A stretch of DNA of 64,000 bases from Sphingobacteriaceae bacterium (GTDB taxonomy: Bacteria > Bacteroidota > Bacteroidia > B-17B0 > Aurantibacillaceae), in assembly GCA_947453445.1 (NCBI GenBank), contig CANGGP010000011.1:1-64000 (forward strand). Reading direction: 5' to 3'. The notes beneath the pieces are model-generated. The model made no database searches and had not been told where the DNA came from. It was given only the letters and a program-made list of their open reading frames with translations. Shown here piece after piece: positions 37,369 through 53,344 of the stretch. Numbering within the stretch: the stretch's first letter is position 1; each line of letters starts with the position of its first letter. Position numbers and translations under genes: made by a program.

Positions 37369-38256
37369 TTAAGATTTAAAATTAGCGCCAACAATCACAT
37401 TTAATGCTTGATTTTGGTTGCTGTAATTTAACACCTCAGTTTCTGAGGCCGGCTCTCCATCGAAATGGATGCTATCAGGGTTCTCCCGAATCACTTGGAG
37501 TTCTTTGCTAACATAGGTTTCGATGGATTTGCTTTTTTGGGCCTTACCCATAATAATTTTTAGAAAAATTTCGAAGACTTTAAAAAAGTTAAATGGTTTG
37601 AGAATCACCACGTGAAACAATCCATCGTTGAGTTTTGCCTCAGGGGCAATGTAAAAATCATTGCCATATTGGCCCGCATTGGCCACGGTAATTAAAAAAG
37701 CCTTACGTTTAATTTCTTCGCCATTAATTTTAATGGTATAATTTTTAGCACGATAAGAAAACAATTCCTTTAAGGTAATTTTTACATAACTGCTTAATCC
37801 TCTTTTAACAGAAGTGGCAAACAAATGGCCTATTTGTGCATCAAAACCAATGCCGCTGGTGCAGAAAAAAGCGCGGCCGTTTACCATGCCGCAATCAATT
37901 TTTGTTTTTTTGCCAATTACAATTTGTTGAATTACTTCTTCGAGTTTCATCGATAAGCCCAAACTTCTGGCCAAACCATTGCCTGAGCCAATGGGTACGA
38001 TGCCCAAAGCGATATTGGTATTGAGCAGCGATTTTGCAACTTCGTTCACGGTGCCATCGCCGCCTACAGCCACTACATCGGTGTAATCACGGTTGATAAA
38101 AAGTTCGACGATGTCTTGAAAATGGTGTTTGTCTTTCCAAATCACAATTTGGTAATTGATGTGTTCAGGGAAATTTTTTTTGATGGCATCAATAATTTTA
38201 TCCGAAATTCTTTTTCCGGCATTTGGATTCACAATAAATAATATTTTCCGCGGCAT
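37369..38256 (-). CDS. Diacylglycerol kinase-family lipid kinase
   Basis: The 295-aa protein belongs to the DagK/YegS/sphingosine-kinase fold. It has KILFIVNPNAGK at the N-terminus, the nucleotide motif VAVGGDGTVNEVAKSL (residues about 62-77), PIGSGNGLARSLGL and DGEPASETEVL near the end. It probably phosphorylates diacylglycerol or a related lipid with ATP at the membrane. The ATG at 38256 follows the stop of the glycosyltransferase gene by a single base, so it is the third gene of a coupled operon with a PlcP-like phosphoesterase. The longer frame from 38448 is overlap with that gene. Confidence 0.88.
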   Translation of the reverse strand: MPRKILFIVNPNAGKRISDKIIDAIKKNFPEHINYQIVIWKDKHHFQDIVELFINRDYTDVVAVGGDGTVNEVAKSLLNTNIALGIVPIGSGNGLARSLGLSMKLEEVIQQIVIGKKTKIDCGMVNGRAFFCTSGIGFDAQIGHLFATSVKRGLSSYVKITLKELFSYRAKNYTIKINGEEIKRKAFLITVANAGQYGNDFYIAPEAKLNDGLFHVVILKPFNFFKVFEIFLKIIMGKAQKSKSIETYVSKELQVIRENPDSIHFDGEPASETEVLNYSNQNQALNVIVGANFKS

Positions 38257-38257
38257 G

Positions 38258-39346
38258 TTAGATGCTGATGATTTCATTGTAGATACGGTGTTTGGCATTG
38301 GCGACCCAGTTTTTAAACCATGAATTATTGCCGTCAAAAGTACTTGAAAAAATGCTAAGTTTCGACAAATCAAAATTATCTGAATAAATTCCTGCCCCTG
38401 CCTTGTAAGCATCGCGTGAATTGCAAAATTGTTCAAAATGTCCTTCAACCGGCACCATCATTACCGGTTTACCCAGGTACATGGCTTCACACACGCTTTC
38501 AAATCCTGCTGTGCTGGCCAAGCCTTTGGCTTTACTCATCATGTCTAAAAACAAAGTATCGTTGATGGCGTGAATGAATAATTTCTTTTTATCAAAGCTG
38601 TAATTGGCTATAAGTTCTTCAGCCTGATCCGTAAAACAATGCAATTCTACTTCAGGATTTAAAAAATGCCATTGCAATATATCCTCAAAATAACCGCTGT
38701 TCACCAAGTAAACGAGATAAAAGTTTTCTTTAATCGATTCTAAAGCAAATACTTCTTTTCTCAAAAGCGGAGGAACAATAATGACATCCTCGCTGGTGGT
38801 GTGTATTTTGTAAAACGACAAACCCAAGTTTTTCGATGAACCATAAGCGGTTAAATGGGTGTAAAAGCGAATGGCCATTTTATCCAAGGCCCTTCCGGCA
38901 GGAAATTCGAAGTCGGGATGAAAATAAATGTACTGATGCGCAATACAAATGAGTTTGGCTTGGGGTTTGTAAAATCGGTAATACAAGCCAATTAATAGAT
39001 CAAAAAAATTAATCACCACGTCGGGTTCATGTTCTTTAATGAGCGCATCAATTGATTTTAAACTTTCACGAAAAGATTTTAATCGACTAAAGTTGTATAA
39101 CAATGTTTTAGGGATGTTGATGCTTTTGTTTTTTTTGTCGGTGACAAAATTTGGACTTTTGAGTTGAATAACGGGCGCCTTAATTTTTTCCAAAAAAAAG
39201 GCCGGTGCTTTTCTGCGATCGCTTGCACCCAATATTACAGCACAAACAGTATGGCCTTGCTCAATCAACATGTCGTACATGCTAATGGCTTGGGTCATGT
39301 GGCCGCGGCCTTCACCTTGAACGGCTAAAATATATTTTTTCGACAT
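38258..39346 (-). CDS. Glycosyltransferase, GT-B fold (MurG/GT28-like)
   Basis: The 362-aa protein starts with the Rossmann-like glycine loop VQGEGRGHMTQAISMYDML (residues about 9-27), resembling MurG and MGDG-synthase-type enzymes that use UDP-sugars. The C-terminal half has the nucleotide-sugar motif LASTAGFESVCEAMYLGKPVMMVPVEGHFEQ (about residues 277-307), with Glu in position for sugar nucleotide binding. In the operon it lies 1 nt after the PlcP-like gene and 1 nt before the lipid kinase. A role in making a glycolipid from diacylglycerol is inferred from this context. The acceptor and sugar are unknown. Confidence 0.85.
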   Translation of the reverse strand: MSKKYILAVQGEGRGHMTQAISMYDMLIEQGHTVCAVILGASDRRKAPAFFLEKIKAPVIQLKSPNFVTDKKNKSINIPKTLLYNFSRLKSFRESLKSIDALIKEHEPDVVINFFDLLIGLYYRFYKPQAKLICIAHQYIYFHPDFEFPAGRALDKMAIRFYTHLTAYGSSKNLGLSFYKIHTTSEDVIIVPPLLRKEVFALESIKENFYLVYLVNSGYFEDILQWHFLNPEVELHCFTDQAEELIANYSFDKKKLFIHAINDTLFLDMMSKAKGLASTAGFESVCEAMYLGKPVMMVPVEGHFEQFCNSRDAYKAGAGIYSDNFDLSKLSIFSSTFDGNNSWFKNWVANAKHRIYNEIISI

Positions 39347-39347
39347 T

Positions 39348-40178
39348 TTAAGATAGATTTTTTTCTAAGGTGATGCCTTCAGGAATAATTTCGGCGAGTT
39401 TGCTGTTTTCCTTTTTAATTTTTTCGGCATCGTGTAATTTTAACCAATCCGTGTAATGTATAATCGACCATACCCCTGCTTGGTCTTCAACCAAAGCAGT
39501 TAAACTTTCAACCCAATCGCCTGAATTTAAATATTCAATACCGCCAATGTTTTTAATGGCCGGTTGATGGATGTGTCCACAAATCACACCATGACACTTA
39601 CGGGCTTTGGCAACTTTCACCAATTCGCTTTCATAATCAGAAATAAAGGACACGGCCGATTTAACTTTGGCTTTAACAACTTGCGACAATGAATAATAGG
39701 GCAATCCTCGTTTTTCGCGGTAGGTATTGTAATGACGATTAAGCCATAATAAAAAGGTGTATCCAACATCGCCCAATTTGGCAATCCATTTTAATTTGGT
39801 GGTAACGTTGTCAAAAATATCGCCATGCGTGACAAAATATTTTTTTTCCAAGCCATAGTGTATATAGTATTTGCGGATGGAGAAATTACCAATTTTAAAA
39901 GGCATGATTTCTTCTAAAAAATCATCGTGATTGCCCCGTATATAAACGATTTTGCATTTTTGTTTGGATGTTAAACCAATGATGAGTTTAAAAAAGTTGC
40001 TGTGTTGTTTTTTCCACTTCCCGTTTTTACGCAATTGCCATCCATCAATGATATCACCATTTAAAATGAGTGTTTCGCATTTGTGGTGTTTTAAAAAATG
40101 GGTAACTTCTTTGGCTTTGCTGGCTTTAATGCCAAGGTGAATGTCGGATAGAACAATGGTTTTGTAAAATGTCTTCAT
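39348..40178 (-). CDS. PlcP-like calcineurin-type metallophosphoesterase (COG2908)
   Basis: The 276-aa protein has the dinuclear metal ligands in LSDIHLG (Asp 12, His 14), NGDIIDGW (Asp 42), RGNHDD (Asn 83, His 84), VTHGDIFD (His 117) and CGHIHQP (His 201, His 203). The region LGDVGYTFLLWLN, YSLSQVVKAKVKSAVSFI and YLNSGDWVESLTALVE fits the group annotated as UDP-2,3-diacylglucosamine hydrolase-like, which includes PlcP, the phospholipase C of phosphate-starved Sinorhizobium and marine bacteria. PlcP releases diacylglycerol from phospholipids. LpxH activity in lipid A synthesis is the alternative. The first gene of the operon, it has a TAACAT direct repeat and a palindrome upstream. The ATG at 40178 is chosen over one at 40214. 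Confidence 0.82.
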   Translation of the reverse strand: MKTFYKTIVLSDIHLGIKASKAKEVTHFLKHHKCETLILNGDIIDGWQLRKNGKWKKQHSNFFKLIIGLTSKQKCKIVYIRGNHDDFLEEIMPFKIGNFSIRKYYIHYGLEKKYFVTHGDIFDNVTTKLKWIAKLGDVGYTFLLWLNRHYNTYREKRGLPYYSLSQVVKAKVKSAVSFISDYESELVKVAKARKCHGVICGHIHQPAIKNIGGIEYLNSGDWVESLTALVEDQAGVWSIIHYTDWLKLHDAEKIKKENSKLAEIIPEGITLEKNLS

Positions 40179-40192
40179 GTAAAACGTTTTAC
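40179..40192. promoter_or_regulatory. 14-bp perfect palindrome at the plcP-like start codon
   Basis: GTAAAACGTTTTAC directly abuts the ATG (minus strand, 40178). It resembles operator half-sites of LacI-type or TetR-type regulators (AAACGTTT core), or it could be a leader hairpin hiding the start codon. The rest of the 302-bp intergenic space to 40480 holds the TAACAT repeat and is otherwise A+T-rich. Confidence 0.5.
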
Positions 40193-40261
40193 AAATGTGC
40201 CGCAACAGCATCACCTATATGTAAAGTAGAAGTGATGAAACAATTAAAAAAAAGCAATCAA

Positions 40262-40278
40262 ATGTTAGTGAGATGTTA
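40262..40278 (-). promoter_or_regulatory. PHO-box-like direct repeat upstream of the plcP operon
   Basis: On the minus strand TAACAT occurs at 40278-40273 and again at 40267-40262, exactly 11 bp apart (TTAACATCTCACTAACAT). Two hexamers with a 5-bp gap are the form of PhoB/PhoP boxes (B. subtilis PhoP: TTAACA, N5). The repeat lies about 85 bp upstream of the start codon. Confidence 0.55.
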
Positions 40279-40480
40279 AGCAGTTGCCTGAAATAAAAAT
40301 ATTTTCAATGCAACAATCTGCAAAAGCCTTTAAAATCAATTGACAGAAAGAAATTATTAACTTAACTTTAAATAATCGATAAAGCTTACAAATAAAATTA
40401 GATTTGGATTTATGGTGATTTCATAAAATTTGTGGGTCGCTTTTATTATTTTCGCCGAATATTAATATGAACATTGCAGC

Positions 40481-41101
40481 ATGAACAGCAAACCGGAATT
40501 AAAAAAAGAATTTTCAAAACCATTGGCATTTTGGCATTGGAGTAATTTATTGGCCATTGCATTGATTTTATTAACTGTATTAATGGTGAAAACCATTTTT
40601 AACGGCCGTGCTAATGCACCGGCGGTAATAGCCGCCTTGGAAAAGAAAGGTGTACTGATTGATACTGAACAAGCGCGCGCTGTTACAAAAATTTATTCAA
40701 AACAATTATGGGATTGGCATGTGTATTTTGGATATGCTTTAACGGCCTTATTATTGTTTAGAATTGTATTGGAATTTTATCAGTCGGAAGATTCTAAATT
40801 ACTGAAACGTTTTAAGCAAGCTAAATCATATTTAAAAAATGCAGGCACTGAAATAAAAGAGGCGCAACACATTTTAGTGGTGAAACTGACTTATTTTGTT
40901 TTTTACGCAACACTGGTATTAATGATCAGTACAGGCTTGTTTATTAAATTTTCTTCCGATTATCCAAAATTAAAACCCATTAAAGAATTTTTAAAAGAAG
41001 TTCACAATGTTGGCATGTATGTGATATTGGCATTTATTGTGGCTCACTTAGCCGGATTGTGGCTTCATGAAAGGAAAAAAGAAAAGCTCGGTAAAGTTTA
41101 G
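40481..41101 (+). CDS. Cytochrome b561-type membrane protein
   Basis: The 206-aa protein has four predicted transmembrane helices and histidines in the places used to bind two haems: FWHWSN (His 19), WDWHVYFGY, KEVHNVGMY and VAHLAGLWLHERKK. It fits the cytochrome b561/b5-like (ferric-chelate or Ni-hydrogenase b-type) family of inner-membrane electron carriers. The partner is not in the window. An upstream ATG at 40467 stops after four codons, so 40481 is the start. It lies divergent from the plcP-like operon. Confidence 0.8.
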   Translation: MNSKPELKKEFSKPLAFWHWSNLLAIALILLTVLMVKTIFNGRANAPAVIAALEKKGVLIDTEQARAVTKIYSKQLWDWHVYFGYALTALLLFRIVLEFYQSEDSKLLKRFKQAKSYLKNAGTEIKEAQHILVVKLTYFVFYATLVLMISTGLFIKFSSDYPKLKPIKEFLKEVHNVGMYVILAFIVAHLAGLWLHERKKEKLGKV

Positions 41102-41134
41102 AGATACCTTTTCGGTAGAATATAATTAATTCGG

Positions 41135-41178
41135 TAACATCCAATTAAAATAAAAAGAACATTGCATTGATATGTTTG
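41135..41178 (+). promoter_or_regulatory. PHO-box-like repeat and promoter of the 41207 phosphatase
   Basis: TAACAT (41135-41140), TAAAAT (41146-41151) and GAACAT (41157-41162) recur at 11-bp steps and are followed eight bases later by a perfect -7 box TATGTTTG (41171-41178). The repeats occupy the -33 region, as expected of an activator that replaces the -33 contact. Confidence 0.6.
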
Positions 41179-41206
41179 CGCCTATATAATTAAGCGATTA
41201 ACAATC

Positions 41207-42184
41207 ATGAAAAAATGCAATTTGAAATTAAAGGTATTAAGCCTTGTTCTCTTCTTAACAACTTTATCACAGGTTTTACTTTCTCAAGACAAAAATGACC
41301 AAGCATTTAGCATCATTGCTTTTGGCGATATGCCTTATGTATTGCCGCAAGATTATGCCCGCTTTGAAAATGTGATTAAAACCATCAATGATCAAAAGCC
41401 GGCCTTTAGTGTAAATGTTGGCGATTTTAAGGCCAGCAGCACACCTTGCAGCGAAGAGGTATTTACAAAAATTCTAAACTATTATCAGCAATTTGATCAG
41501 CCCATGATTTATACACCGGGCGATAATGAATGGACGGATTGTACCAAAAAAGATGCAGGCGCTTATGACGCAGAAGAAAGATTGATGTTGCTTCGAAAAA
41601 TGTTTTTTAAGGATCAAAATAGTTTTGGTAAACAAAAATTGACGCTTAGTTCTCAATCAAAAAATCCCGATTTTGTGAATTACGTTGAAAACAATTATTG
41701 GTTTTATCATTCGGTGGCATTTGCTACCATGAATATTGTGGGAAGCAATAACAATTTTTTGCCCACTTCGAAAAATGGCAATAAAGAATTTTTTGAACGC
41801 GAAAAAGCCAATTTGGCATGGATGGAAGAGACCTTCAAAAAAGCCAAAGAAAACAATGCAAAGGCCGTGGTGTTTGTGATTCAGGCCGATATGTATTTGG
41901 GCAACAAAGATCTAAAAGAGGCCAGTGGATTTATTCAAATCAAAAAGAAATTGGCAGAACTCAGTGCCGATTTTAAAAAGCCTGTTTTATTAATCAATGG
42001 CGATTCGCATGATTTTATCATCGAAAAACCAATTGTTGAAGATCAAAAAACCAAAAAGTGTCTTGAAAATTTTACACGCCTACAAGTGCCGGGTGAAAGT
42101 AACATGCATGTAACAAAAATTTACATTAACCCAAATGCCCCGTCGGTATTCATGTTTGAGGAAATACATGTAACAGGTAATTAG
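41207..42184 (+). CDS. Exported calcineurin-like metallophosphatase
   Basis: The 325-aa protein has a signal peptide (hydrophobic LVLFLTTLSQVLLS) and metallophosphatase blocks: IIAFGDMPYVLP (Asp 44 region), FSVNVGDFKASS, YTPGDNEWTDC and LINGDSHDFIIEKP. The family cleaves phosphomonoesters or diesters in the periplasm or outside the cell. The exact substrate is unknown. It is monocistronic and has the clearest phosphate-type control region in the window. Confidence 0.82.
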   Translation: MKKCNLKLKVLSLVLFLTTLSQVLLSQDKNDQAFSIIAFGDMPYVLPQDYARFENVIKTINDQKPAFSVNVGDFKASSTPCSEEVFTKILNYYQQFDQPMIYTPGDNEWTDCTKKDAGAYDAEERLMLLRKMFFKDQNSFGKQKLTLSSQSKNPDFVNYVENNYWFYHSVAFATMNIVGSNNNFLPTSKNGNKEFFEREKANLAWMEETFKKAKENNAKAVVFVIQADMYLGNKDLKEASGFIQIKKKLAELSADFKKPVLLINGDSHDFIIEKPIVEDQKTKKCLENFTRLQVPGESNMHVTKIYINPNAPSVFMFEEIHVTGN

Positions 42185-42212
42185 CATAAACTTTACATTC
42201 AACAGAATTCTC

Positions 42213-42251
42213 TAACATCTCCCTAATTGATTCGTAACACAATTGCAACAT
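42213..42251 (+). promoter_or_regulatory. PHO-box-like repeats upstream of the TonB receptor operon
   Basis: TAACAT (42213), TAATTG (42224), TAACAC (42235) and CAACAT (42246) follow each other at exact 11-bp steps. A TTACAATTTTGC element 28 bp beyond (42279-42290) recurs, with one base changed, upstream of the phosphatase at 46869 (TTACAACTTTGC, 46834-46845) and may be the promoter. Confidence 0.6.
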
Positions 42252-42303
42252 AGCATTGTTATTTAACTAACATTCATATTACAATTTTGCCGAGTATAAA
42301 AAA

Positions 42304-45033
42304 ATGAAAAATCTACTCGTACTTATTCTCTTTGTTATAACACAAATCTCCATTGCTTCCAACATCAAGGGTTTTGTGCATGATTCATTAAATGGCGACC
42401 CTGTGGTTGGCGGTACAGTGCATTTAAAGAACACCAAATTTGTGAGTTACATTAATTTGGATGGAAGTTTTGAAATTAAAAATGTACCGGCCGGTTCATA
42501 TGTGATTGTGGTTTCTTTTATTGGGTATAACACATTAGAAAAGCAAGTGGAAGTTCAGGAAGACAAAAACCTTTCATTTAAATTTAAACTGGTGGAAGCA
42601 TTCAATCAACTCACCGAAATAACGGTTACAGGTAAAGCGGATGAAGGCTCAGAAGCACAAAGTAGAAAAATAGAACAAAATTCTGACAACGTCATCAGTT
42701 CCTTAAGTGCCAAAGCCATTCAAGTATCGCCGGATATTGCCGTTGGCAACGTGATGCAAAGGGTTTCAGGTGTATCCATTGTTCGTAATGGAAATGGCGA
42801 TGGTCAATACGCCGTGATTCGCGGCATGGAACAGCGCTATAATTATACCACCGTTAACGGCATTAAGATTCCTAGTCCGGATAATAAAAACCGATACATT
42901 CCCATGGATATTTTTCCGGCAGATTTATTAGAACGTTTGGAAGTTGTAAAAGCATTAACGCCCAATATGGAAGGCGATGCCATTGGCGGGGCGATGAACA
43001 TGGCCATGAAATCGGCACCCAATGCTTTTTTGTTAAACGCCAGTATGTCGGGCGGTTACAGCTCAGTCTTATCAAATCATCCTTTTAGTACCTTTAATAC
43101 CAAGAACTTAAATTTTAAAGCGCCATCTGAAATACATGGCAATAATTATGTTTCTCAAGTAAGTGATTATTCAATCAATTCTTTAAAGTATCACAATGTT
43201 ACATTACCCATCAGTAGCACTTATGCCTTAACCATCGGCAACCGTTTCTTTAAAAATAAACTGGGCGTATTGGTGGCCGCAAGTTACCAGCATATGTACC
43301 GTAGCCACAATGGATTGTTTTATCAAATTGCTGAGCAACCAAATCCGGGCAATGTTGTTTCTAACAATGGCATTGAAAATAGAAATTACTCTTCTTTACA
43401 AGGAAGGAGCGGTGTTCATATTAACCTGGATTATAATTTAAATGCAAGGACCAAATTTCATTTGTACAATATTTTTGCGCAATTGGATGAAACACAGCAC
43501 CGATACCGCGAGGAAGTAAGAACCACCAGCTATGGTGAATATTCAAACCACAACCGTTCGATGTTTCAACGACAACGCGTGAACAGTACCTCATTTAAAA
43601 TTGAACAAACCATTTTTAAGGGTCTTAAAGTAAACGCATTATTAAATTACGCAATAGCGTCGAATATTATTCCTGATCAATTGGAATTGAATGTAAAAAC
43701 AAAAATTGACAGGAATTCCATCACCGGTCAATTAACTGATCCGGGTGATTTTATCAATGATTTAACGCACAGATGGTATCACAACAGCGACAAAGACAAA
43801 GGGGTTTATTATAACTTGGTTTATCAAATTATTCCTGCCATTGAAATATCGGCAGGGGGATTGTACAAAACCAAAGACAAGGAAAATTTTTATACTGAAA
43901 ATAAATTAAGCGCTTTTGGTCCGAGTTCAGCCGGACAAGCATATTCGGGCATTGACAATGTGAATTTTATTTTCTTTCCCACTTACAATGCCATGGCAGA
44001 TTCAACGGATCCAAAAAACTACAAGGCAAAAGAAATAATCAAAGCCAATTACGCACAAGCTAAAATAGTGATACTAAAAAAATTACAAGTTGTGGGTGGT
44101 TTACGCATCGAACAAACAACACAATCCTACACCTCCGCTATTTCGCCCTTATTAGCAGGCAAATCGGGTTCTGTTACCTATCGTGATCTTTTACCTAGTG
44201 TGCATTTTAAATTTGCACTCAACAAATTAAGCAATATCCGTTTATCTTATTTTAAAGGAATTAGTCGTCCTGCCCTTTTTGAATTGGTGAATGCCCCAAA
44301 TATTGGAGATTATTACACTGAAAGCGGCAATCCTTATTTGAAGCATACAAAATCGACCAATTACGATTTGCGTTATGAGTTTTTTCCAAAAAATGATGAA
44401 CAGCTAATTGTAGGTGTATTTTATAAAAACATCATTAATCCGATTGAATATAGTTTTGCGCAGGTTGGCAATAATTTTTACGTGTATCAACCAAGTAATT
44501 TTGGTAATGCCGTTAATTATGGTTTTGAATTTGTAGGTGCGAAGTTTTACAAAAAGTTTGGACTTTCGGGCAATTATACTTTTACAGAATCTTCCATCAC
44601 CACGTCTAAGCGTATCGTAGAAGCCAATGGCACACCAAGTTCAAAAGATTATACCAGACCATTGCAAGGCCAATCAAAACACATTGCCAATTTATCTTTC
44701 ATTTATAAAAATTCAAAAATCGGAACAGATGCAAGAATTTCGTATGTGTACACAGGTGAGAGAATTAGTATTGTGTCGGCTTTTTATGGTTTAGATTATT
44801 GGCAAAGACCAACGAGTCAATTAGATTTTTCAGCCGAAAAAAGTATCGGTAAAAAATTTGTCATCTATACAAAAATTACCAATCTGTTAAACAACAAAAC
44901 CATAGTTGAAATCAGAACACTATTGCCTGACTATTTTGTAGGAAGTCCGGGTCAGTCAAGAAGCGATAGAGTACTCACTGTTTCTGATGCTTACGGCCAA
45001 ACCTATTTATTAGGCATGCGATATAAATTTTAA
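42304..45033 (+). CDS. TonB-dependent outer-membrane receptor
   Basis: The 909-aa protein has a signal peptide and a CarboxypepD_reg-like domain at about 20-105 (GFVHDSLNGDPVVGGTVHLK). The plug domain (about 115-230) reads SPDIAVGNVMQRVSGVSI, YAVIRGMEQRYNYTTVNG and EVVKALTPNMEGDAIGG. The barrel follows and ends with an aromatic C-terminus (LGMRYKF). It imports a ligand using TonB energy. The ligand is not known; the beta-helix lipoprotein gene 27 bp downstream and the phosphatases nearby make a phosphorylated compound plausible (inference). Confidence 0.92.
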   Translation: MKNLLVLILFVITQISIASNIKGFVHDSLNGDPVVGGTVHLKNTKFVSYINLDGSFEIKNVPAGSYVIVVSFIGYNTLEKQVEVQEDKNLSFKFKLVEAFNQLTEITVTGKADEGSEAQSRKIEQNSDNVISSLSAKAIQVSPDIAVGNVMQRVSGVSIVRNGNGDGQYAVIRGMEQRYNYTTVNGIKIPSPDNKNRYIPMDIFPADLLERLEVVKALTPNMEGDAIGGAMNMAMKSAPNAFLLNASMSGGYSSVLSNHPFSTFNTKNLNFKAPSEIHGNNYVSQVSDYSINSLKYHNVTLPISSTYALTIGNRFFKNKLGVLVAASYQHMYRSHNGLFYQIAEQPNPGNVVSNNGIENRNYSSLQGRSGVHINLDYNLNARTKFHLYNIFAQLDETQHRYREEVRTTSYGEYSNHNRSMFQRQRVNSTSFKIEQTIFKGLKVNALLNYAIASNIIPDQLELNVKTKIDRNSITGQLTDPGDFINDLTHRWYHNSDKDKGVYYNLVYQIIPAIEISAGGLYKTKDKENFYTENKLSAFGPSSAGQAYSGIDNVNFIFFPTYNAMADSTDPKNYKAKEIIKANYAQAKIVILKKLQVVGGLRIEQTTQSYTSAISPLLAGKSGSVTYRDLLPSVHFKFALNKLSNIRLSYFKGISRPALFELVNAPNIGDYYTESGNPYLKHTKSTNYDLRYEFFPKNDEQLIVGVFYKNIINPIEYSFAQVGNNFYVYQPSNFGNAVNYGFEFVGAKFYKKFGLSGNYTFTESSITTSKRIVEANGTPSSKDYTRPLQGQSKHIANLSFIYKNSKIGTDARISYVYTGERISIVSAFYGLDYWQRPTSQLDFSAEKSIGKKFVIYTKITNLLNNKTIVEIRTLLPDYFVGSPGQSRSDRVLTVSDAYGQTYLLGMRYKF

Positions 45034-45059
45034 TCATCTAAAAAATCAAAACAAAAAAA

Positions 45060-46559
45060 ATGAAAAATCAAACAAAAAAAATCAGCTATATAATAGGCGT
45101 AGGGGTCTTCGCCTTATTCATAGCAGCAATTTCATCTTGTAAAAAGTCGAGTGCTACAACCACAGATGATGAGCAAGTAACCGTTTCAGCACCGCTTTTC
45201 TCGGTAGGTCAACCGGTTGACAACTCTAAACCGCTTTGTAATGCCATTAAAGGAACCATGAAAGAAGGTTTGGAATACCACATTGGTTGCGACGTTACTG
45301 TGAACAAAGGCGATACATTATTGGTTCAACAAGGTGCTAAAATTTATTTCGATGGTAACTATAATATTATTGTTAGAGGTTCGATTGTGTGTTTGGGTAC
45401 AAAAGAAAAACCAATTTGGTTTACTGTAAAAGACTTGGCTAAAACGGATGTTGCCGGCGCAAGTATATTAACTGATCCTGCTTACGTTGGTAAATGGGGC
45501 GGCATTTTAGGTGATACCAGTACCAAAATGATGATCTTTAAATGGACACACGTTGAATTTGGTTGCGGACCATTGGCTACTTCACCGGTATACGGTATGT
45601 CGGGCGGTGGTAAACCTGCGTATATGTTAAACGTTGTGAATCCTGATGGTTTATTTGTATTGGAAGATTCATGGATTTATGGTGGTGTTGATGATCCTAT
45701 CCGTATTCAAGGTGGTCATATTCACGTGATGAGAAACACTTTTGAAAAAGGTGGTTTAACCGGTGGAGAATATTTAAACATTAAATCGGGTACTGTTGGA
45801 AACGTGGCTTACAATTTAATGATTGGGGCTGCTACAAATGGTGTAAAACCTTCAAACAACGGAAGCCGTGGTCAAGTTACCACAATTTACGCTTACAACA
45901 ATACCTTTGTTGAATCAGGTTATCGTCGTGCATCAGCTGGTCGTGGTGGTTCAATTAATTTTGAAGAAGGATCACGTGGTAAGGCATTTAATAATTTGAT
46001 TGTGAATTGTCGTTATGGTTTACGCATTGTTGGTTATGATGGTTCTTACAGCGGTAATGCTTTAAAGGCGGCTGATTTTGCTAACATTGATTATGGTTAC
46101 AACTATAACTATTGTGATTCATTAAAATTGGCAAATCAAATTTATCCTGTGCCATTTTCAACTGTACCTAAATCAACTGATATTCCTGCCATCGCAGGTT
46201 GGTTGCCGGCAAATTATTTAACTTGTTTAACTGCTTCAACAGCTGCTTGTGATATTTATGACGGTACTCCGGTTGTTGGTCAAAACGATCCTCAATTTGT
46301 TAACTTCCCTGTAAAACAAAACAGAAACTTAGGTACTGTGGCTTATGCTACAGGTTGGGATTTTCATTTGAAATCAACTTCACCGGCTTTAAACAAAGGT
46401 TTCACAGGATTTGTGCCTTTGGCTGATGGTGTTGTATTTGGAACACCTGCTGTATCTTATAAAATTAAAGTAGATGCTAAATTTGGTGCAACTGAAATTA
46501 CACCTCCGGGTGCTGATATTGGTGCTTACCAATCGAGCGGAAAAGGTAACCAGCATTAA
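45060..46559 (+). CDS. Lipoprotein with right-handed beta-helix region
   Basis: The 499-aa protein has lipobox ISSC (Cys 27) followed by KKSS. Residues about 60-420 have repeated short strands typical of parallel beta-helix folds: GDTLLVQQGAKIYFDGNYNIIVRG, SWIYGGVDDPIRIQGGHIHVMRNTF and GKAFNNLIVNCRYGLRIVG. No polysaccharide-lyase active site is obvious. It is 27 bp after the TonB receptor and probably forms a surface binding pair with it, in the place where SusD would be in Sus systems. It is followed by a strong terminator. Confidence 0.75.
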   Translation: MKNQTKKISYIIGVGVFALFIAAISSCKKSSATTTDDEQVTVSAPLFSVGQPVDNSKPLCNAIKGTMKEGLEYHIGCDVTVNKGDTLLVQQGAKIYFDGNYNIIVRGSIVCLGTKEKPIWFTVKDLAKTDVAGASILTDPAYVGKWGGILGDTSTKMMIFKWTHVEFGCGPLATSPVYGMSGGGKPAYMLNVVNPDGLFVLEDSWIYGGVDDPIRIQGGHIHVMRNTFEKGGLTGGEYLNIKSGTVGNVAYNLMIGAATNGVKPSNNGSRGQVTTIYAYNNTFVESGYRRASAGRGGSINFEEGSRGKAFNNLIVNCRYGLRIVGYDGSYSGNALKAADFANIDYGYNYNYCDSLKLANQIYPVPFSTVPKSTDIPAIAGWLPANYLTCLTASTAACDIYDGTPVVGQNDPQFVNFPVKQNRNLGTVAYATGWDFHLKSTSPALNKGFTGFVPLADGVVFGTPAVSYKIKVDAKFGATEITPPGADIGAYQSSGKGNQH

Positions 46560-46868
46560 GATTTTTCATTTTTTTCTAAAGCAGCGTTTTTATTCAATGA
46601 ATAAAGGCGCTGCTTTTTTATTTCATTTTTGATTAAATGAATTCGCGGTATTAAAATTCGAAAATGGATACAATTGAATTTTCATTCAAATTTTTAAAAA
46701 CAATCAAATTTGTTGTTCAATGTCCAAGACACTTATCAATTCTGATTTAAAACTGTATTAATGAATATACCATTACGACATTATTGTGTTTTAATTAAAT
46801 GCGATTCCCTACAAGTACAATTTCCTTTTAATGTTACAACTTTGCAAGCGAAAACATATTTATAAAAA
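46560..46868. other. Intergenic region, 309 bp
   Basis: It contains the terminator below and, at 46834-46845, TTACAACTTTGC, a likely promoter element shared with the TonB receptor gene at 42304. No 11-bp TAACAT repeat was found here. No gene is supported. Confidence 0.6.
46578..46619 (+). terminator. Rho-independent terminator after the beta-helix lipoprotein
   Basis: AAAGCAGCG (46578-46586) pairs with CGCTGCTTT (46608-46616), followed by a T run; an inner TTATTC/GAATAA pairing extends the stem. It ends the 42304-46559 operon. Confidence 0.85.
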
Positions 46869-48746
46869 ATGAAATCAAAAATCTTATCCTTTCTCTTAAT
46901 AAACGGTTTAACGCTTGCCTCTCAAAACCACAGCCACCTTGAAATTCCATCTGTACTAAAAGAATTTTCTTATTCTGACTGTCAGTTAACACTTTCAAAA
47001 AATGCTCAGTCGTTAAAAGAACTTGGCAAAAAAGACGTCTACAATTATTCTAATTTCTCAACATTAGCAAAAGGCGCTGACACAGGTCTCGAAATTGATT
47101 TAAAAAAACCAGGCTTAAATGGTTCTGTAGCTTACGGTCCTTATAATGCCGAAGCTGAATTTCCGACCGTATCATTTTTACCCAAAACTGTAAAATTAAG
47201 TGATGGCAAAGCCTTACTGGAATTAAAATCGGTTTTCACCAAAGCGAACGATTTTTTTAAATTGGCTGAAAAAGCGCAAGGCATCATCGGTTATCGAATA
47301 ATGGATAACGAAGGCCGAATTGTTTACGAAGGCAGATGTGCTTTTACCGGCAAAGGTCCTTACAAAGTATTACCCGCTATCAATGAAGGTCCATTCGTAA
47401 ATCTAATGAACGAAAACGGTTGTACAATATCATTTGAAACCCAAGCAGCACTTAAAACAAAAATTACAATTGGTACTCTAAGTTTTGAAGATGAACAAGC
47501 AAGCAAACACCATGAAATAAAAATAAGTGGATTACAAGCCTCAACACAATATACTTACCAAATCACCTATGGTGATCGCAAAGACAATTTTAAATTTACA
47601 ACTGCTGCAAGGGCAGGCAGTAGAACGCCATTTACTTTCGCTTTCGCAAGTGCAAATCGTGCCAATACCGGCGGTGGTGAAAAAGATTTTGGCGGCACCA
47701 ATTATCAAACTACACGGGCCATAATGGCGGCTGCCTTACAAAATAAGGCCGTATTTATGCAAAACATGGGCGACATCACAAATGGTGGCAATACGGGTCA
47801 AGATGGTCATCTTTTAGAATATGCAAATTTTAAAAGGGCTTTGGAACCTTTTTGGAGTAAGGTGCCTGTGTATTTAGGATTCGGTGATCATGAAGTAAAC
47901 TATTATGCTTTTGAGGTAGATACAGTTTTAAAAAAATCTGCTAAAATAGATCGATTTCCCTACGCAACAGAATCGGGTGAAGCAGGTTTTGCAAAGGCAT
48001 TTGTACATCCTCAGAATGGACCTGATAGCGAAGATGGCGCGGTTTATGACCCTAACAACAGTAGCATCGATTTTCCAACTTATAAAGAAAATGTGTATTC
48101 ATATACTTACGATAATGTTGCCATGATTGTGTTAAACACAGAATATTGGAAAGCACAAGATCCAAAAGTTAGCGGTTCACCCGAAGGTTATATCATGGAT
48201 GTGCAATTAAAATGGTTAAGTGAAACCATTCAGAAATTTGAAAATGATGGCAACATTGATCACATTTTTGTGAATGTACACAGTGCGGTATTTCCAAACG
48301 GTGATCATGCCAATGGCGCTATGTGGTATGATGGCAGTAACAACGAACGCGCCAAAGTTGCCGGTCAAAAAGTAGAAAAAGGCATATTAGAAAGACGTGA
48401 TGATATTTTGGATATCTGTGTGAACAAGAGCAAAAAATTTCTGGCTTTTATTTCAGGCGACGAACACAATTTTGCATTTCTACAGGTGAACCCAGATTTT
48501 ACGATGTATCCCAAAGATTACACGCTTCCTAAATTAAAACTTAGCAGAACTTTTTATCATATTAATAACGGTGGTGGTGGTTCAGCAGCTTATGCAATTC
48601 TTCCAACCCCATGGTCGGGCCTTTTTCAATTCTTTACTGAACCCCCGGTACTTGCTCTCATTCATGTAAAAGGAAAATCAGTGAGTTTAAGTGCAATCAA
48701 TGCAGAAACTTTTGGACCGGTATGCCAAGAAACTAAATTAAGATAA
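46869..48746 (+). CDS. Exported metallophosphatase of the purple acid/PhoD-like type
   Basis: The 625-aa protein has a signal peptide, an N-terminal beta region with a FnIII-like module (ISGLQASTQYTYQITYGDR, about residues 215-240) and a metallophosphatase domain. Visible metal-site blocks are FAFASANRANTGGG, MQNMGDITNGGN, LGFGDHEVNYY, HIFVNVHSAVFPNGDH and AFISGDEHNFAFL. It probably hydrolyses phosphate esters outside the cytoplasm. Start M1 is followed directly by the signal. Downstream, a second phosphatase follows within 25 bp, so the two are one operon. It lacks a T9SS tail. Confidence 0.82.
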   Translation: MKSKILSFLLINGLTLASQNHSHLEIPSVLKEFSYSDCQLTLSKNAQSLKELGKKDVYNYSNFSTLAKGADTGLEIDLKKPGLNGSVAYGPYNAEAEFPTVSFLPKTVKLSDGKALLELKSVFTKANDFFKLAEKAQGIIGYRIMDNEGRIVYEGRCAFTGKGPYKVLPAINEGPFVNLMNENGCTISFETQAALKTKITIGTLSFEDEQASKHHEIKISGLQASTQYTYQITYGDRKDNFKFTTAARAGSRTPFTFAFASANRANTGGGEKDFGGTNYQTTRAIMAAALQNKAVFMQNMGDITNGGNTGQDGHLLEYANFKRALEPFWSKVPVYLGFGDHEVNYYAFEVDTVLKKSAKIDRFPYATESGEAGFAKAFVHPQNGPDSEDGAVYDPNNSSIDFPTYKENVYSYTYDNVAMIVLNTEYWKAQDPKVSGSPEGYIMDVQLKWLSETIQKFENDGNIDHIFVNVHSAVFPNGDHANGAMWYDGSNNERAKVAGQKVEKGILERRDDILDICVNKSKKFLAFISGDEHNFAFLQVNPDFTMYPKDYTLPKLKLSRTFYHINNGGGGSAAYAILPTPWSGLFQFFTEPPVLALIHVKGKSVSLSAINAETFGPVCQETKLR

Positions 48747-48770
48747 TATAAAACAATTAAAAACAGCAAC

Positions 48771-50207
48771 ATGAAAATTAAAATAAGCCTACTTGCACTT
48801 ACATTAAGTTTAAGTAGTTTAAATGCACAGAACAAAAAAGCAAGTGATGATTTTGTTGTAAAACCTTATTTGCAAATTGGTGTCCATCCAAGTCCACAAA
48901 GTTTGCAATTACTTTGGCAAAGCATTGACACCACTGCATCTTGGCAATTGGAGCATAAGGTAGAGGAAAAGGGAACTTGGAAAAAAAAGGAAATAACGAC
49001 TTACTCAAAAGTACTTGCTAAAGGAATAAAAGCACGTCGTGTTTATCATGCGGCATTAACTGATTTGATTCCGGGTTCAGTTTTTAACTACAGGGTGATA
49101 AAGAACGGTAAGGTTGTTTTTACGGCGGAAGCCAAAGCACCTAAAAATGACAAACAGGCTTTTCGATTTGTGGCGTTCGGTGATATTGGGGCAGGCACGT
49201 TACAGCAAAAATTGCTTGCAAACAGGGCCGCTCAGTTAAAACCTGATTTGGTAATTGTGCCCGGTGATATTGTTTATGAAAGGGGATTAATTTCAGAATA
49301 TGATAAAAACTTCTGGCCAATTTATAATACTGATATTACAAGTGATTCAGGCGCAGCCATGTTGCGATCGGTTCCTTTTGTGTCGGCACCGGGAAATCAT
49401 GACACCGATACACGCGATCTTAATCAATATCCGGATGCATTGGCTTATTATTTATTTTGGGAACAGCCGCTTAACGGTCCGCTTTGTGCCGAAGGTGGTC
49501 CGTTTGTGCCTAAACTCATTGCCTCAGATGAAAACCGAAAACCATTTATTGAGGGCGCAGGCGATGCTTATCCGCGCATGACCAATTATTCTTTCGATTA
49601 TGGGAATGCCCATTGGACCATTATTGATTCTAATCCTTATGTTGATTTTACTGATACAACATTAAATAATTGGGTGGCAAGAGATTTGGCAACAGCGAAA
49701 AATGCAGCTTGGCGTTTTATTGTATTTCATCATCCGGGTTTTAATTCAGCACGCGAACACTATGAACAACAACAAATGCGTTTACTTACACCAATTTTTG
49801 AAGCAGGAAAAGTTGACGTTGTATTCAATGGTCACGTACACAATTATCAACGAACATTTCCAATGACATTTGTTCCGGATAAAAAAGGAACCTTGTTGGT
49901 TGGCGGTAAAGAAGGCAAAACACCCAGGGGACGCGTGGTAAATGGCAAATGGAAATTGGATAAAACTTTTGACGGTAAAACCGATACAACGCCTGAAGGC
50001 ATTGTTTATGTAATCACCGGGGCGGGAGGACAAAGCTTATATAATCCAGAACAAAACAATGATCCTGATTCGTGGCAAAAATTCACTGACAAATTTGTTT
50101 CCAATATTCACTCTTTAACCATTGCTGAAGTAGATGGAAATAAGTTGACCATCCGCCAAGTTACGGCTGAAGGCAAAGAAGTGGACGCATTTATCATCAC
50201 CAAATAA
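48771..50207 (+). CDS. Purple acid phosphatase-like metallophosphoesterase
   Basis: The 478-aa protein has a signal peptide, an N-terminal PAP-type FnIII domain (about residues 35-125) and the calcineurin-like domain. Metal ligands appear in FRFVAFGDIGAG (Asp), VIVPGDIVYERG, VSAPGNHDTD, FIVFHHPGFNS and VFNGHVHNYQRTFPM. The GHVHNYQR ending is the classic purple acid phosphatase motif. It likely frees phosphate from esters in the periplasm. It is 25 bp after the first phosphatase and 18 bp before the YncE-like gene. Confidence 0.88.
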   Translation: MKIKISLLALTLSLSSLNAQNKKASDDFVVKPYLQIGVHPSPQSLQLLWQSIDTTASWQLEHKVEEKGTWKKKEITTYSKVLAKGIKARRVYHAALTDLIPGSVFNYRVIKNGKVVFTAEAKAPKNDKQAFRFVAFGDIGAGTLQQKLLANRAAQLKPDLVIVPGDIVYERGLISEYDKNFWPIYNTDITSDSGAAMLRSVPFVSAPGNHDTDTRDLNQYPDALAYYLFWEQPLNGPLCAEGGPFVPKLIASDENRKPFIEGAGDAYPRMTNYSFDYGNAHWTIIDSNPYVDFTDTTLNNWVARDLATAKNAAWRFIVFHHPGFNSAREHYEQQQMRLLTPIFEAGKVDVVFNGHVHNYQRTFPMTFVPDKKGTLLVGGKEGKTPRGRVVNGKWKLDKTFDGKTDTTPEGIVYVITGAGGQSLYNPEQNNDPDSWQKFTDKFVSNIHSLTIAEVDGNKLTIRQVTAEGKEVDAFIITK

Positions 50208-50224
50208 TTCAAAATCAATTAAGC

Positions 50225-51226
50225 ATGAAAAAATTACTTTTAATCGGCAGCCTTTTGTTGGCGTGTATCAACAATCAAGCACAAGAAAAAATAGAATTCA
50301 AATTGTCAAAAAAGATTGCATTACCCGGCAACGGCAAATGGGATTATATGAGCGTAGATAATGACAGTAAACGCTTATATGTTTCTCACGCCGACCGAGT
50401 GCATGTAATTGATTTGAGCAATGACCAGCCAATTGCAGAATGGACAGGACTTGCCAATGTGCATGGTATTGCATTTAGCAAAAAGCAGAATAAAGTGTAT
50501 GTTGCAAATACCAACGATAACAATGTGGTAATTTTTGATGCAAAAAGTTTAACAAAAACGAAAACGATTGAACTTAAAGGCGCCATAAAGCCTGATTGCA
50601 TTTTTTTTGATGAGTTTTCGCAAAAGGCTTTTGTGTTTTGCGGCAAAAGCAATAATACTTATGTGTTGGATGCCAAAACGGATGAAGTACTTGCTGTTAT
50701 TGATATGGGAGGCAAGCCTGAATTTGCTTGCAGCGATGATAAAGGATTTGTTTACAACAACATTGAAGACAAAAATGAAGTGGTTGTGATAGATGCAAAA
50801 CAAAACAAAATCGTGAATCGTTTTTCCTTGCTTGAAAACAAAGCACCAACAGGTTTGGCAATCGATAAAAGCCATGAGCGATTAATGGTGGCTTGTGAAG
50901 AAAGTGAAAAAATGGTGGTCATGGATTTGAAAAGTGGGAAATTAATTGCTGTGATACCAATGGGTAAAAAAACCGATGGCCTAATTTATATGAAAGGAAA
51001 AAGTTTAATTGTCACATCTGATGGTGGCGGTTCAGCTACAATTATCAAGCAGGAAAGTGCAGACAAGTATACTGTACAACAAATCTTAATAACGCAACAG
51101 GGTCTTAAAACCATTTCGTACGAAGAAAAGAAAGCGCGTTTCTTTATTAGTGGTGCCAATTTTGAAGCCGATGGAAAAACCATTGTACCCAATTCATTCG
51201 GCGTTTTTGTGTATACCATGAATTAA
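50225..51226 (+). CDS. Exported YncE-like beta-propeller protein
   Basis: The 333-aa protein has a signal peptide (to about NNQAQ) and seven YVTN-type repeats such as GKWDYMSVDNDSKRLYVSH, AFSKKQNKVYVANTNDNNVV, FVFCGKSNNTYVLDAKTD and AIDKSHERLMVACEESEKM. YncE-like propellers bind ligands or DNA outside the cytoplasm, but their function is poorly known. As the last gene of the phosphatase operon it may be a ligand-binding or sensing component (inference). Confidence 0.82.
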   Translation: MKKLLLIGSLLLACINNQAQEKIEFKLSKKIALPGNGKWDYMSVDNDSKRLYVSHADRVHVIDLSNDQPIAEWTGLANVHGIAFSKKQNKVYVANTNDNNVVIFDAKSLTKTKTIELKGAIKPDCIFFDEFSQKAFVFCGKSNNTYVLDAKTDEVLAVIDMGGKPEFACSDDKGFVYNNIEDKNEVVVIDAKQNKIVNRFSLLENKAPTGLAIDKSHERLMVACEESEKMVVMDLKSGKLIAVIPMGKKTDGLIYMKGKSLIVTSDGGGSATIIKQESADKYTVQQILITQQGLKTISYEEKKARFFISGANFEADGKTIVPNSFGVFVYTMN

Positions 51227-51360
51227 TTGCCAACTACTTTTACTAACAAGAACATTAACGAACCAATACTATTGTTAAAAAGAAAGAAAAGTCAAATCTT
51301 GGCTTAAAAATCAGAAAATAATTAGAATTGCTTTATAGTTTTGTTAATTAAACTAAGGTC

Positions 51361-52038
51361 ATGAAGTTATTAATTGTAGAAGATGAAAGAGAATTATCGA
51401 GCAGTATTTGTGAATATTTGCAAGTAGAAAACTTTTATTGTGATGCGGCGTATGATTATGTTCAAGCCTTGGAAAAAATTGCAACCAATAAATATGATTG
51501 TATTGTACTTGATATTATGTTGCCAAGTGGAAGCGGATTAGACATTTTAAAAACGCTTAAACTTAACAGAAAAGAAGATTCAGTATTAATCATCTCTGCA
51601 AAAAATTCTTTGGAAGACAAGGTAAGCGGCTTAAACCTTGGGGCCGATGATTATTTAACCAAGCCATTTAACTTGGCTGAACTTGGCGCAAGGGTTCAAG
51701 CAGTGTTGCGTCGCAGATCTTTTGAAGGTAATAATCAAGTAATTGTTGGGCCATTAAAATTAGACATCCAAAACAACAGTTTAATGGGTCCAAACGGATT
51801 AATAGAGCTTACACGCAAACAATTTGATTTGCTTGTGTTTTTTATTGGCAACAAAAACCGAGTGATCACTAAAGAAACCATTGTTGAACACTTGTGGGGA
51901 GACAATTGTGATATGTTTGATAATTATGACTTCATTTATACGCACATTAAAAATCTCCGTAAAAAATTAATGGCAGAAGGTTGTCCAAACTATATTAAAG
52001 TGATTTACGGTGTAGGTTATAAATTCGAATTAAATTAA
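51361..52038 (+). CDS. OmpR/PhoB-family response regulator
   Basis: The 225-aa protein has a receiver domain with acidic pocket VEDERE, phospho-acceptor Asp 51 in CIVLDIMLPSG and Lys 101 in YLTKPFN, then a winged-helix DNA-binding domain with ELTRKQFDLLVFFIGN and DFIYTHIKNLRKKL. A TAGTTTTG box is at 51336-51343. Upstream, ACTAACAAGAACATTAACG has TAAC repeats 12 bp apart, a weak candidate autoregulatory site. It forms a pair with the histidine kinase 11 bp downstream. Confidence 0.93.
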   Translation: MKLLIVEDERELSSSICEYLQVENFYCDAAYDYVQALEKIATNKYDCIVLDIMLPSGSGLDILKTLKLNRKEDSVLIISAKNSLEDKVSGLNLGADDYLTKPFNLAELGARVQAVLRRRSFEGNNQVIVGPLKLDIQNNSLMGPNGLIELTRKQFDLLVFFIGNKNRVITKETIVEHLWGDNCDMFDNYDFIYTHIKNLRKKLMAEGCPNYIKVIYGVGYKFELN

Positions 52039-52048
52039 ACAACACAAT

Positions 52049-53344
52049 TTGAAACTCATTTCTAAATATAACCGCATCAATATTCTTTTGATTGTTGTGA
52101 TATTTGTGATGAGTAGTATGGCCTTAAATTTTTTCGTGAAGCGAACAATGATCTCTGAATTAGACGAGGCGCTGCAAGAAATAAAAGACCGCGCATCTAA
52201 TTATACACAAAAGGAGCAAAAAATACCGGTTAATTTTACCTTAGATGATTATCACATTGTTTATGCAATAACACCAAATTTGCGTCAAAATGACCTTTAT
52301 AAAACCATCGCACACACAAATCACGAAAAAAATAAAATTCAAAATTTTAGAGAACTATCTTATACCACAAACATTGGCCAATTCACTTATCTGGTGAAGA
52401 TTGAAAAACCAATTGAAGGCATGCGTCAAATGGCCGCCAATATTATTAATTTGAGTATTGTTACCCTTTTAATTGTTGTTTTATTTCTTGTTGTAGTTAA
52501 CCGTTATGTTTTAACACGCCTTTGGAGCCCATTTTATAAAAGTTTGGAAGTCATGGATCGGTTTCAATTGAACAAGCAAAACGACCTCGATTTTCCAATT
52601 ACAAGTACCGAAGAATTTAATTATATGAATGCAATTTTGAAACGCAGTACTTTAAAAGCGGGCGAAGATTATGTAGCATTAAAAGAATTTACTGAAAATG
52701 CTTCCCACGAACTGCAAACGCCTTTGGCAATCATTGGCTCCAAACTTGATTTATTAATACAAGATGAAAATTTGAGTGAAAAACAAGAAGAAAAAATAAG
52801 ATCTGCTTACACAGCGTTAAAGAGGATTTCACAATTAAATCAGTCGTTGTTATTGTCGGCAAAAATAGGGAATCAGCAATTTGCAGAAAAAAGCAGAATT
52901 TCATTTAAGCAAAAAATCAATGAAAAACTCAATCAGTTTCAAGAATTGTGGGAGGAACAAATTGTTGTAAACGCAAATATGGAAGAGTCGTTTGTGTTAA
53001 TGAATAAAGACCTTAACGACACGCTCATTAATAACTTATTGAGCAACGCCACCAAACACAATGTGCTAAACGGTAGCATTCGCATTCAATTAATTCCGGG
53101 CGAACTCAGCATTACCAACACAGGAACAAACCAAGCTTTGGATTCGAAAAAACTTTTTCAGCGTTTTTATAAAAGTGATCAAAATTCGAGAGGCAATGGA
53201 CTTGGTCTTAGTATTATTAAGCAAATTTGTGATACCTCAGGTATAACGATTAATTATTATTATATCGAAAATACCCACAAATTTGTTCTAAGTTGGAATT
53301 ATCAACATATGGAAAACAAAAACACATGGCCATTTAAGCCCTAA
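52049..53344 (+). CDS. Sensor histidine kinase
   Basis: The 431-aa protein starts at TTG 52049. Two transmembrane helices (about 8-30 and 134-152) flank a periplasmic sensor of about 100 residues without a recognised domain. The dimerisation domain has the phospho-acceptor His 220 in FTENASHELQTPLAIIG. The ATPase domain has an N box (NNLLSNATKHN) and a G2 box (GNGLGLSIIKQ). The partner is the response regulator 11 bp upstream. Given the phosphatases to its left and the TonB receptor to its right, control of nutrient uptake is plausible. Confidence 0.92.
   Translation: MKLISKYNRINILLIVVIFVMSSMALNFFVKRTMISELDEALQEIKDRASNYTQKEQKIPVNFTLDDYHIVYAITPNLRQNDLYKTIAHTNHEKNKIQNFRELSYTTNIGQFTYLVKIEKPIEGMRQMAANIINLSIVTLLIVVLFLVVVNRYVLTRLWSPFYKSLEVMDRFQLNKQNDLDFPITSTEEFNYMNAILKRSTLKAGEDYVALKEFTENASHELQTPLAIIGSKLDLLIQDENLSEKQEEKIRSAYTALKRISQLNQSLLLSAKIGNQQFAEKSRISFKQKINEKLNQFQELWEEQIVVNANMEESFVLMNKDLNDTLINNLLSNATKHNVLNGSIRIQLIPGELSITNTGTNQALDSKKLFQRFYKSDQNSRGNGLGLSIIKQICDTSGITINYYYIENTHKFVLSWNYQHMENKNTWPFKP

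Follow-up and report, generated by a model that had tools for sequence, protein, structure and literature searches.

Do the TAACAT-like hexamers that recur every 11 bp before three transcription units of contig CANGGP010000011.1 act as PHO boxes, and if so, which regulator would bind them? PHO boxes are established 11-nt direct repeats of 7 conserved and 4 less conserved bases (PMC4415409). In the 64,000-nt stretch of this contig that was analyzed (the window), an earlier note had pointed to TAACAT-N5-TAACAT at 40278/40267 on the minus strand, TAACAT-TAAAAT-GAACAT at 41135/41146/41157 and TAACAT-TAATTG-TAACAC-CAACAT at 42213/42224/42235/42246. Direct reading confirms the letters and their 11-bp step, and domain searches identify the genes behind the arrays as encoding a plcP-like phosphoesterase, another calcineurin-like phosphoesterase and a receptor of the TonB-dependent type. 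Two arrays, 41134-41162 and 42212-42251, and a weaker third one at 40219-40236 share with pst, pit and porin promoters their units, their 11-bp step, a fixed register with a downstream TTTG and a common code; judged from sequence, they are probably sites of a PhoB-type regulator (G000:C5:32195-32851, where G000 is the 3.7-Mb genome to which the window belongs and other G labels are comparison genomes) that would activate these genes during phosphate starvation.

The existence of a PHO box was decided on training sites that all lie outside the window, which was itself not used for that purpose. The own PstS protein retrieved 80 titled contigs (loci, the best 80 of 536 confirmed relatives), and in their 163,256 bases with open reading frames (ORFs) masked, the exact form TTAACA-Nx-TTAACA is found 45 times at x = 5 and 0 to 3 times at every other x from 2 to 15. 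The PHO box in these relatives is TTAACA-N5-TTAACA, with a step of exactly 11 bp. Half of the loci (40 of 80), four Porphyromonas among them, lack the TTAACA form and carry NTAAY units instead, for example GTAACC-N5-GTAACA. The loci are not independent samples: L102 and L104 are apparent counterparts of contigs from G017 and G003, and related species have sites in common.

The same box is present in the own genome. Its pst operon lies on contig C3, where PstS, PstC, PstA, PstB and PhoU all score above NCBIfam cut-offs; the first gene of the operon is porin-like, having no Pfam match itself and being 37-40% identical to G008 and G002 proteins that match Porin_O_P, and two phosphate-transporter genes follow it, of which the one tested matches PF01384. 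The promoter of this porin-like gene contains TTAACAATTCCTTAACATT, and similar pairs occur at pst, porin or pit promoters of G001, G003, G017, G021, G023 and G029; weaker boxes of the own genome precede a PitA-type gene, phoB and two genes near phoB. Moreover, exact pairs are found 59-82 bp before porin-type or pitA-type genes (Pfam tested in part) in the genus members G002, G006-G009, G011, G014 and G016, in which PhoU was not found. On a contig of G030 (C23) that also holds a PhoB-like gene, an exact TTAACATTTACTTAACA box (L220, 2529-2607) stands 78 bp before an open frame encoding a distant relative (28%) of the window's TonB receptor. Overall, the suggestion that the repeat might define a PHO box for the group holds in that a box with an 11-bp step exists both in the own genome and across many other genomes of the phylum; TAACAT-N5-TAACAT is not its best form, which is TTAACA-N5-TTAACA.

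Motif matching alone does not identify the regulon. The earlier note had proposed a genome-wide motif search as a check; the PHO consensus gives 315 sites versus 403 in the reversed control (≤3 mismatches), showing no enrichment, and the hexamer search was dropped as a regulon predictor. What sets the phosphate genes apart is the register of the box with the -7 TTTG of the promoter. The -7 box of sigma-A promoters in flavobacteria and other Bacteroidota is TAnnTTTG (PMC9723704). Across a promoter-site set of 112 sites from 56 of 97 loci, which includes the own-genome pst site or sites, the distance from the first unit to the start of TTTG is 52 nt in 40 cases, 41 nt in 12, 63 nt in 10 and 30 nt in 7, and 69 of 93 offsets share a single residue modulo 11. 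The NTAAY pairs in the 40 loci lacking the TTAACA form behave alike, with 43 of 57 offsets in register and 22 at exactly 52 nt, the latter in 19 loci. When the step itself was varied over the ORF-masked parts of the 80 whole loci, which extend beyond the pst promoter alone, pairs at step 11 had a TTTG at exactly 52 nt in 56 loci, versus 5, 0, 0, 1, 0 and 1 loci for steps 8, 9, 10, 12, 13 and 14; pairs in register (52 nt plus or minus whole 11-bp steps) were found in 65 loci, versus 7, 2, 4, 11, 3 and 6. By lineage, all four Porphyromonas loci have a pair at 52 nt, the single Bacteroides locus is in register and not at 52 nt, and Parabacteroides has one of eight loci at 52 nt and three of eight in register. 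If the -7 box spans -12 to -5 (PMC9723704), simple arithmetic would put the first unit at about -60 and the second at about -49, just above the -33 region, with third and fourth units falling at -38 and -27.

The PHO box thus keeps a fixed position relative to the core promoter, and the phosphatase, TonB and plcP promoters of the window conform to it. Their conformity was measured with a unit matrix, also used for the comparisons with relatives, that was built without the own genome and without the window. It was applied to the window, the pst region, the phoB region and 20 more 20-kb stretches of the own genome (about 0.5 Mb containing 10,789 TTTG; L061 and L062 are chosen, non-random regions), where the slots at 74, 63, 52, 41 and 30 nt before each TTTG were scored. 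A promoter filter, requiring an intergenic TTTG near a start codon, left 417 promoters (418 with another edge margin); the pitA site is missing from this list, its TTTG falling inside the start codon. The highest two-unit scores belong to the pst porin-like gene (20.7), a gene near phoB (16.6), the phosphatase gene at 41207 (13.3) and plcP (11.5), followed by phoB (11.3), the TonB gene beside phoB (11.2) and the TonB gene at 42304 (10.0), while the eighth promoter scores 8.7. The three window promoters consequently rank third (phosphatase), fourth (plcP) and seventh (TonB) of 417 by two units, and the TonB promoter ranks second by three units. The phoB region was chosen beforehand for its phoB gene, and the two genes near phoB were called phosphate-linked after the ranking.

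Because the three window promoters had been picked in the first place for their TAACAT arrays, the unbiased test is the phase control and not the raw rank. In ten out-of-phase controls, at most three promoters reach 9.9, versus seven in phase, with single out-of-phase promoters scoring as high as 18.1 (phase -3), 15.0 (+5) and 13.1 (-1). At these other phases, the two-unit ranks of the window promoters range from 33 to 386, and the worst-placed of them never rises above rank 189; in three-unit scoring, one window promoter has a rank of 9, at phase +3.

The phosphatase promoter is the clearest case in the window. Its array (41134-41162, plus strand) consists of GTAACAT at 41134, TTAAAAT at 41145 and AGAACAT at 41156, as supported by both a first-order Markov test and the slot scores; the two units that lie 41 and 30 nt ahead of TTTG have scores of 7.8 and 5.5. 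The -7 element TATGTTTG (41171-41178, plus strand, TTTG at 41175) fits TAnnTTTG (PMC9723704), and the gene behind it (41207-42184, plus strand) encodes a 325-residue calcineurin-like phosphoesterase (PF00149, 25.7 bits, cut-off 21.5). Relatives of this protein are 66% identical in G016 and 69% in G409, and the in-register scores of their promoters (13.3 in the own genome, 9.2 in G016 and 14.8 in G409) show that the register is kept. At the TonB promoter, CTAACAT at 42212, CTAATTG at 42223, GTAACAC at 42234 and GCAACAT at 42245 (42212-42251, plus strand) occupy the slots 74, 63, 52 and 41 nt before TTTG (42286-42289, plus strand), with scores of 6.3, -1.3, 7.3 and 2.7; the gene (42304-45033, plus strand) encodes a 909-residue TonB-dependent receptor with a CarboxypepD_reg domain (PF00593, PF07715, PF13715). 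Both arrays, as the earlier note had them, therefore sit in PHO-box register.

These arrays also exceed chance as arrays. Against 40 first-order Markov resamples of the window, searched on both strands, three-copy arrays at step 11 (≤4 mismatches) occur 14 times versus a mean of 2.9 and a maximum of 7, and steps 7-10 and 12-16 yield 0-4 each. Four-copy arrays at step 11 (≤5 mismatches) occur 3 times versus 0.025 expected (maximum 1) and are absent from the window at steps 7-10 and 12-16; all three lie within 41135-42273. The window holds far more three- and four-copy TAACAT-like arrays with an 11-bp step than chance would produce, and the array at 41135 is the single best three-copy match in the whole genome (2 mismatches), where the three-copy pattern at ≤3 mismatches gives 11 sites versus 8 in the reversed control. 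Among two-copy patterns, the exact TAACAT-N5-TAACAT pair occurs once, a count reached in 1 of 40 resamples, and the loose form (≤2 mismatches) is only weakly enriched, with 25 sites versus 16.7 expected and 4 of 100 shuffles as high.

Several observations weigh against assigning the window arrays to PhoB. A plain two-unit position weight matrix (PWM) scores the plcP pair at 12.1, the phosphatase array at 2.1 and the TonB array below zero, while training sites score 19.3-31.7; the maxima of resampled windows average 12.2, which puts the window sites at background level. They would then work like a PHO box without being members of its consensus. The two-unit PWM was rejected as a sole test of the window sites, being too weak, and so was its best site in the window (42180-42201, 12.3), whose first unit lies 105 nt before the TonB TTTG, out of register, and which overlaps the end of the phosphatase gene. 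When the promoter filter is removed, three-unit scores above 9 in the window number 6 in phase, 5 at +5 and 3 at -3, the highest (20.0) being at phase -3; across all TTTG, two-unit scores of 18.1 (phase -3) and 15.4 (+5) occur at other sites, versus 20.7 in phase. These high out-of-phase maxima slightly lower the confidence placed in the PhoB assignment and slightly raise that in two alternatives treated below, a local regulator and chance.

Conservation and specificity speak the same way. The TonB and plcP sites are patchily conserved among relatives: the G016 TonB promoter keeps just two non-adjacent units (strong, at 74 and 52 nt), no box was found at the TonB gene of G409, G308 or G408, and plcP promoters score at least 9.3 in 4 of 17 genomes. 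Likewise, no in-register box was found at the G308 phosphatase gene, and 15 of the 80 loci, including five of eight Parabacteroides, have no in-phase pair. Of the 28 own-genome sites that deviate by at most 2 mismatches, 17 fall inside genes and 1 is at a gene recognized as phosphate-linked; none of the exact sites C32:515, C72:13669 and C121:1400 was assigned to a phosphate gene, the one neighbor inspected, behind C72:13669, encoding a protein that looks phasin-like by eye. Finally, the PhoB candidate itself falls below both curated PhoB models (TIGR02154, 232.3 of 296.2; NF053854, 211.4 of 270). As a separate observation, the sites at C32:515 and C121:1400 carry an identical exact 17-base palindrome-like box and are perhaps parts of a repeated element.

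The plcP promoter is where a different explanation fares best, and it concerns one of the three sites. The gene (39348-40178, minus strand; PF00149, 52.8 bits) was given a new start at ATG 40178 (MKTFYK), where its relatives have a conserved start motif. Its -7 element is CACATTTG (40192-40199, minus strand, TTTG from 40195), and TTTG lies 17 nt before the ATG in 14 of 16 listed plcP genes and 19 and 16 nt before it in the other two; G005, with no TTTG within 45 nt of its plcP, has no entry in this comparison. The units in phase with this element are ATCACT at 40236 and TTTACAT at 40225 (40219-40236, minus strand), 41 and 30 nt before TTTG, with scores of 2.2 and 9.2. The TAACAT-N5-TAACAT pair that the earlier note had read as the plcP box (40262-40278, minus strand) is another matter: its TTAACA begins 84 nt ahead of TTTG, missing the register by one base, and the pair falls in a region with a strong predicted hairpin in 8 of the 10 relatives examined. 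This pair, whose role is doubtful, may be the remnant of an intrinsic terminator from an upstream gene since lost, an explanation to which the evidence leans slightly. Its TTAAC lies 101 nt before the plcP ATG, and the upstream regions of 10 of 16 other plcP genes, when folded, have a TTAAC at 99-101 nt that in those 8 opens a hairpin of -13 to -20 kcal/mol followed by T-rich sequence; at the window's own pair no hairpin is predicted. However, the letters agree poorly with those of the hairpin-bearing relatives (18-31 of 47 ungapped identities over a 47-base stretch, highest in G017 and G010), which weakens the terminator explanation. In addition, five relatives (G016, G009, G017, G010 and G001) keep a second TAACA at the 11-bp step, so that binding or a double role is possible, the letters resemble TTAACC-N5-GTAACA of Bacteroidales pst promoters, and the pair has the PWM score of 12.1. 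The presence of PhoU bears no clean relation to the presence of the pair.

Downstream of plcP, a glycosyltransferase gene (MJ1255-like, below cut-off) and a YegS/BmrU-type lipid kinase gene (37369-39346, minus strand) would complete a lipid-remodeling set. A calcineurin-like phosphoesterase adjoining a glycolipid glycosyltransferase gene, as found here with the latter's model match below cut-off, is the arrangement that identifies PlcP, and the activity is predicted. Predicted Pho boxes at plcP are already on record for marine bacteria (PMC4796936).

The identity of the regulator raises a second alternative. An OmpR-type response regulator and a PorY-family histidine kinase are encoded within the window itself (51361-53344, plus strand), and the regulator at 51361 had been put forward as the protein to use in binding assays. 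It is not PhoB, nor is its partner PhoR: the regulator scores 161.5 of 296.2 with TIGR02154 and 149.2 of 270 with NF053854, the model of Bacteroides-type PhoB, and the kinase next to it matches the PorY-family model NF052314 (398.8, cut-off 350). As a PhoB candidate, it was rejected for falling below both curated models and for being 31.0% identical to the pst-linked regulator of G029. The protein encoded outside the window at G000:C5:32195-32851 is 60.6% identical to that regulator and is likely a PhoB-type protein, named by this similarity and because its promoter carries a box; in the 31 genomes searched, no protein passes the NF053854 cut-off. The own kinase most similar to PhoR is encoded on another contig (G000:C62:11681, 43%), so that phoB and the nearest phoR-like gene lie on separate contigs (C5 and C62); no phoR was found within about 1.5 kb on either side of phoB in the genus loci read, and in several other families of the class it is found there. 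Beside phoB, a TonB receptor gene and the next gene, encoding a protein sorted by the type IX secretion system, have in-phase boxes (L062, 6970-11977, on G000:C5), and both are predicted members of the phosphate regulon.

OmpR-family regulators generally bind direct repeats, and this fits the idea that the arrays are sites of the local regulator at 51361, responding with its PorY-family partner to a signal of its own and not to phosphate. In G016 and G409, too, the regulator and kinase genes are neighbors of the phosphatase and TonB genes, and the window arrays differ from the strongest PhoB boxes. Nevertheless, the idea is unlikely to be correct: in register and unit code, the arrays match the promoters of pst, pit, porin and phoB genes, including those of genomes in which no close copy of 51361 was found (G017, G021 and G023 have no match at 1e-90, and 2 of 395 drawn genomes of the class, the own one included, have one). 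Moreover, the promoter of 51361 has a different repeat, of CAGAAA/TAGAAT type, in the own genome, G016 and G409, and no in-register TAACAT array (scores of -1.4 and 3.1, with no TTTG within 70 nt in G409). This repeat, TCAGAAAATAATTAGAAT at 51311 (51311-51339, plus strand), has its own 11-bp step, with similar ones in G016 and G409, and is perhaps an autoregulatory site of the PorY-paired regulator; the TAGAAT pattern is not enriched in the window (19 sites versus 19.0 expected at ≤3 mismatches).

It is very improbable that chance in A+T-rich promoter DNA, together with selection by eye, produced the arrays: loose two-copy matches do barely exceed shuffles, loose genome-wide matches are not enriched and other phases also score high without the promoter filter, but the three- and four-copy arrays beat all 40 resamples and every other step, and the three window promoters stand in the top seven of 417 only at a phase learned elsewhere.

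Under the PhoB assignment, phosphorylated PhoB would bind head-to-tail on the 11-bp units, along one face of the helix, when phosphate is scarce. It would sit a fixed number of turns upstream of the -7 element TAnnTTTG, in and just above the -33 region, and from there recruit RNA polymerase carrying sigma-A. Switching on plcP together with the glycosyltransferase and the lipid kinase would then lead to the replacement of phospholipids, and switching on the phosphoesterase and the TonB receptor would lead to the uptake of organic phosphate. The neighborhood of plcP (window 40481-53344; L221, L235) holds a cluster of a TonB receptor, a lipoprotein-like protein, phosphoesterases, a beta-propeller protein, a regulator and a kinase. 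The cluster is rare, its TonB gene being found at 1e-100 in 4 of 40 genus genomes including the own one, and its internal order is changed in G016.

Taken more broadly, these results make it fairly likely that a promoter grammar for phosphate control is widespread in Bacteroidota, in which NTAAC(A/C) units repeat every 11 bp and keep register with the TTTG of the -7 element, the first unit starting 52 nt before it or at a distance differing from this by whole helical turns; the five of eight Parabacteroides loci lacking an in-phase pair lowered this estimate. The number and letters of the units would vary by lineage, with TTAACA in most sampled loci and GTAAC(A/C) in Porphyromonas and several others. 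The register, more than the consensus, would mark a functional site, and weak arrays such as those of the window would be true regulon members that a motif search misses. If this is true, the rule linking operator and -7 element would let phosphate regulons be read from genomes, including those of uncultured organisms, and would make for a clean test of helical phasing under a sigma factor with a -7 box unlike the E. coli one. Soil, plant roots, water and the gut are all settings in which the phosphate response of Bacteroidota is important, and the gene lists drawn on here come from expression studies.

A PHO box defined for Bacteroidota was not found in searches of an open-licence library, which omits most subscription papers. 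In Flavobacterium johnsoniae, phosphate depletion induces plcP, phosphatases, TonB transporters and phoB, a gene set like the one described here, and the main text of that study, where the words Pho box, promoter and motif are absent, gives no binding site (PMC8115612). In Bacteroides fragilis, a member of the same phylum, PhoB binds a 512-bp fragment of the pst promoter and is required for pstC expression; the part of that paper drawn on here gives no box (PMC3547664), for which the present analysis offers a candidate form. PHO boxes as such are already known, and what is new is the form of the box and its register to the -7 element. The consensus of the Bacillus subtilis PhoP box is close to TTAACA, which is nearly the unit found here, and its promoter context differs. 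That box also consists of direct repeats of similar build (PMC4415409). The E. coli PHO box, like the one described here, has two 11-nt direct-repeat units at phosphate-starvation promoters, with CTGTCAT as its unit (PMC4415409) in place of TTAACAT or GTAACA; unlike in E. coli, the units here are in register with the Bacteroidota -7 element TAnnTTTG and shift by whole turns, standing 30, 41, 52 or 63 nt before it.

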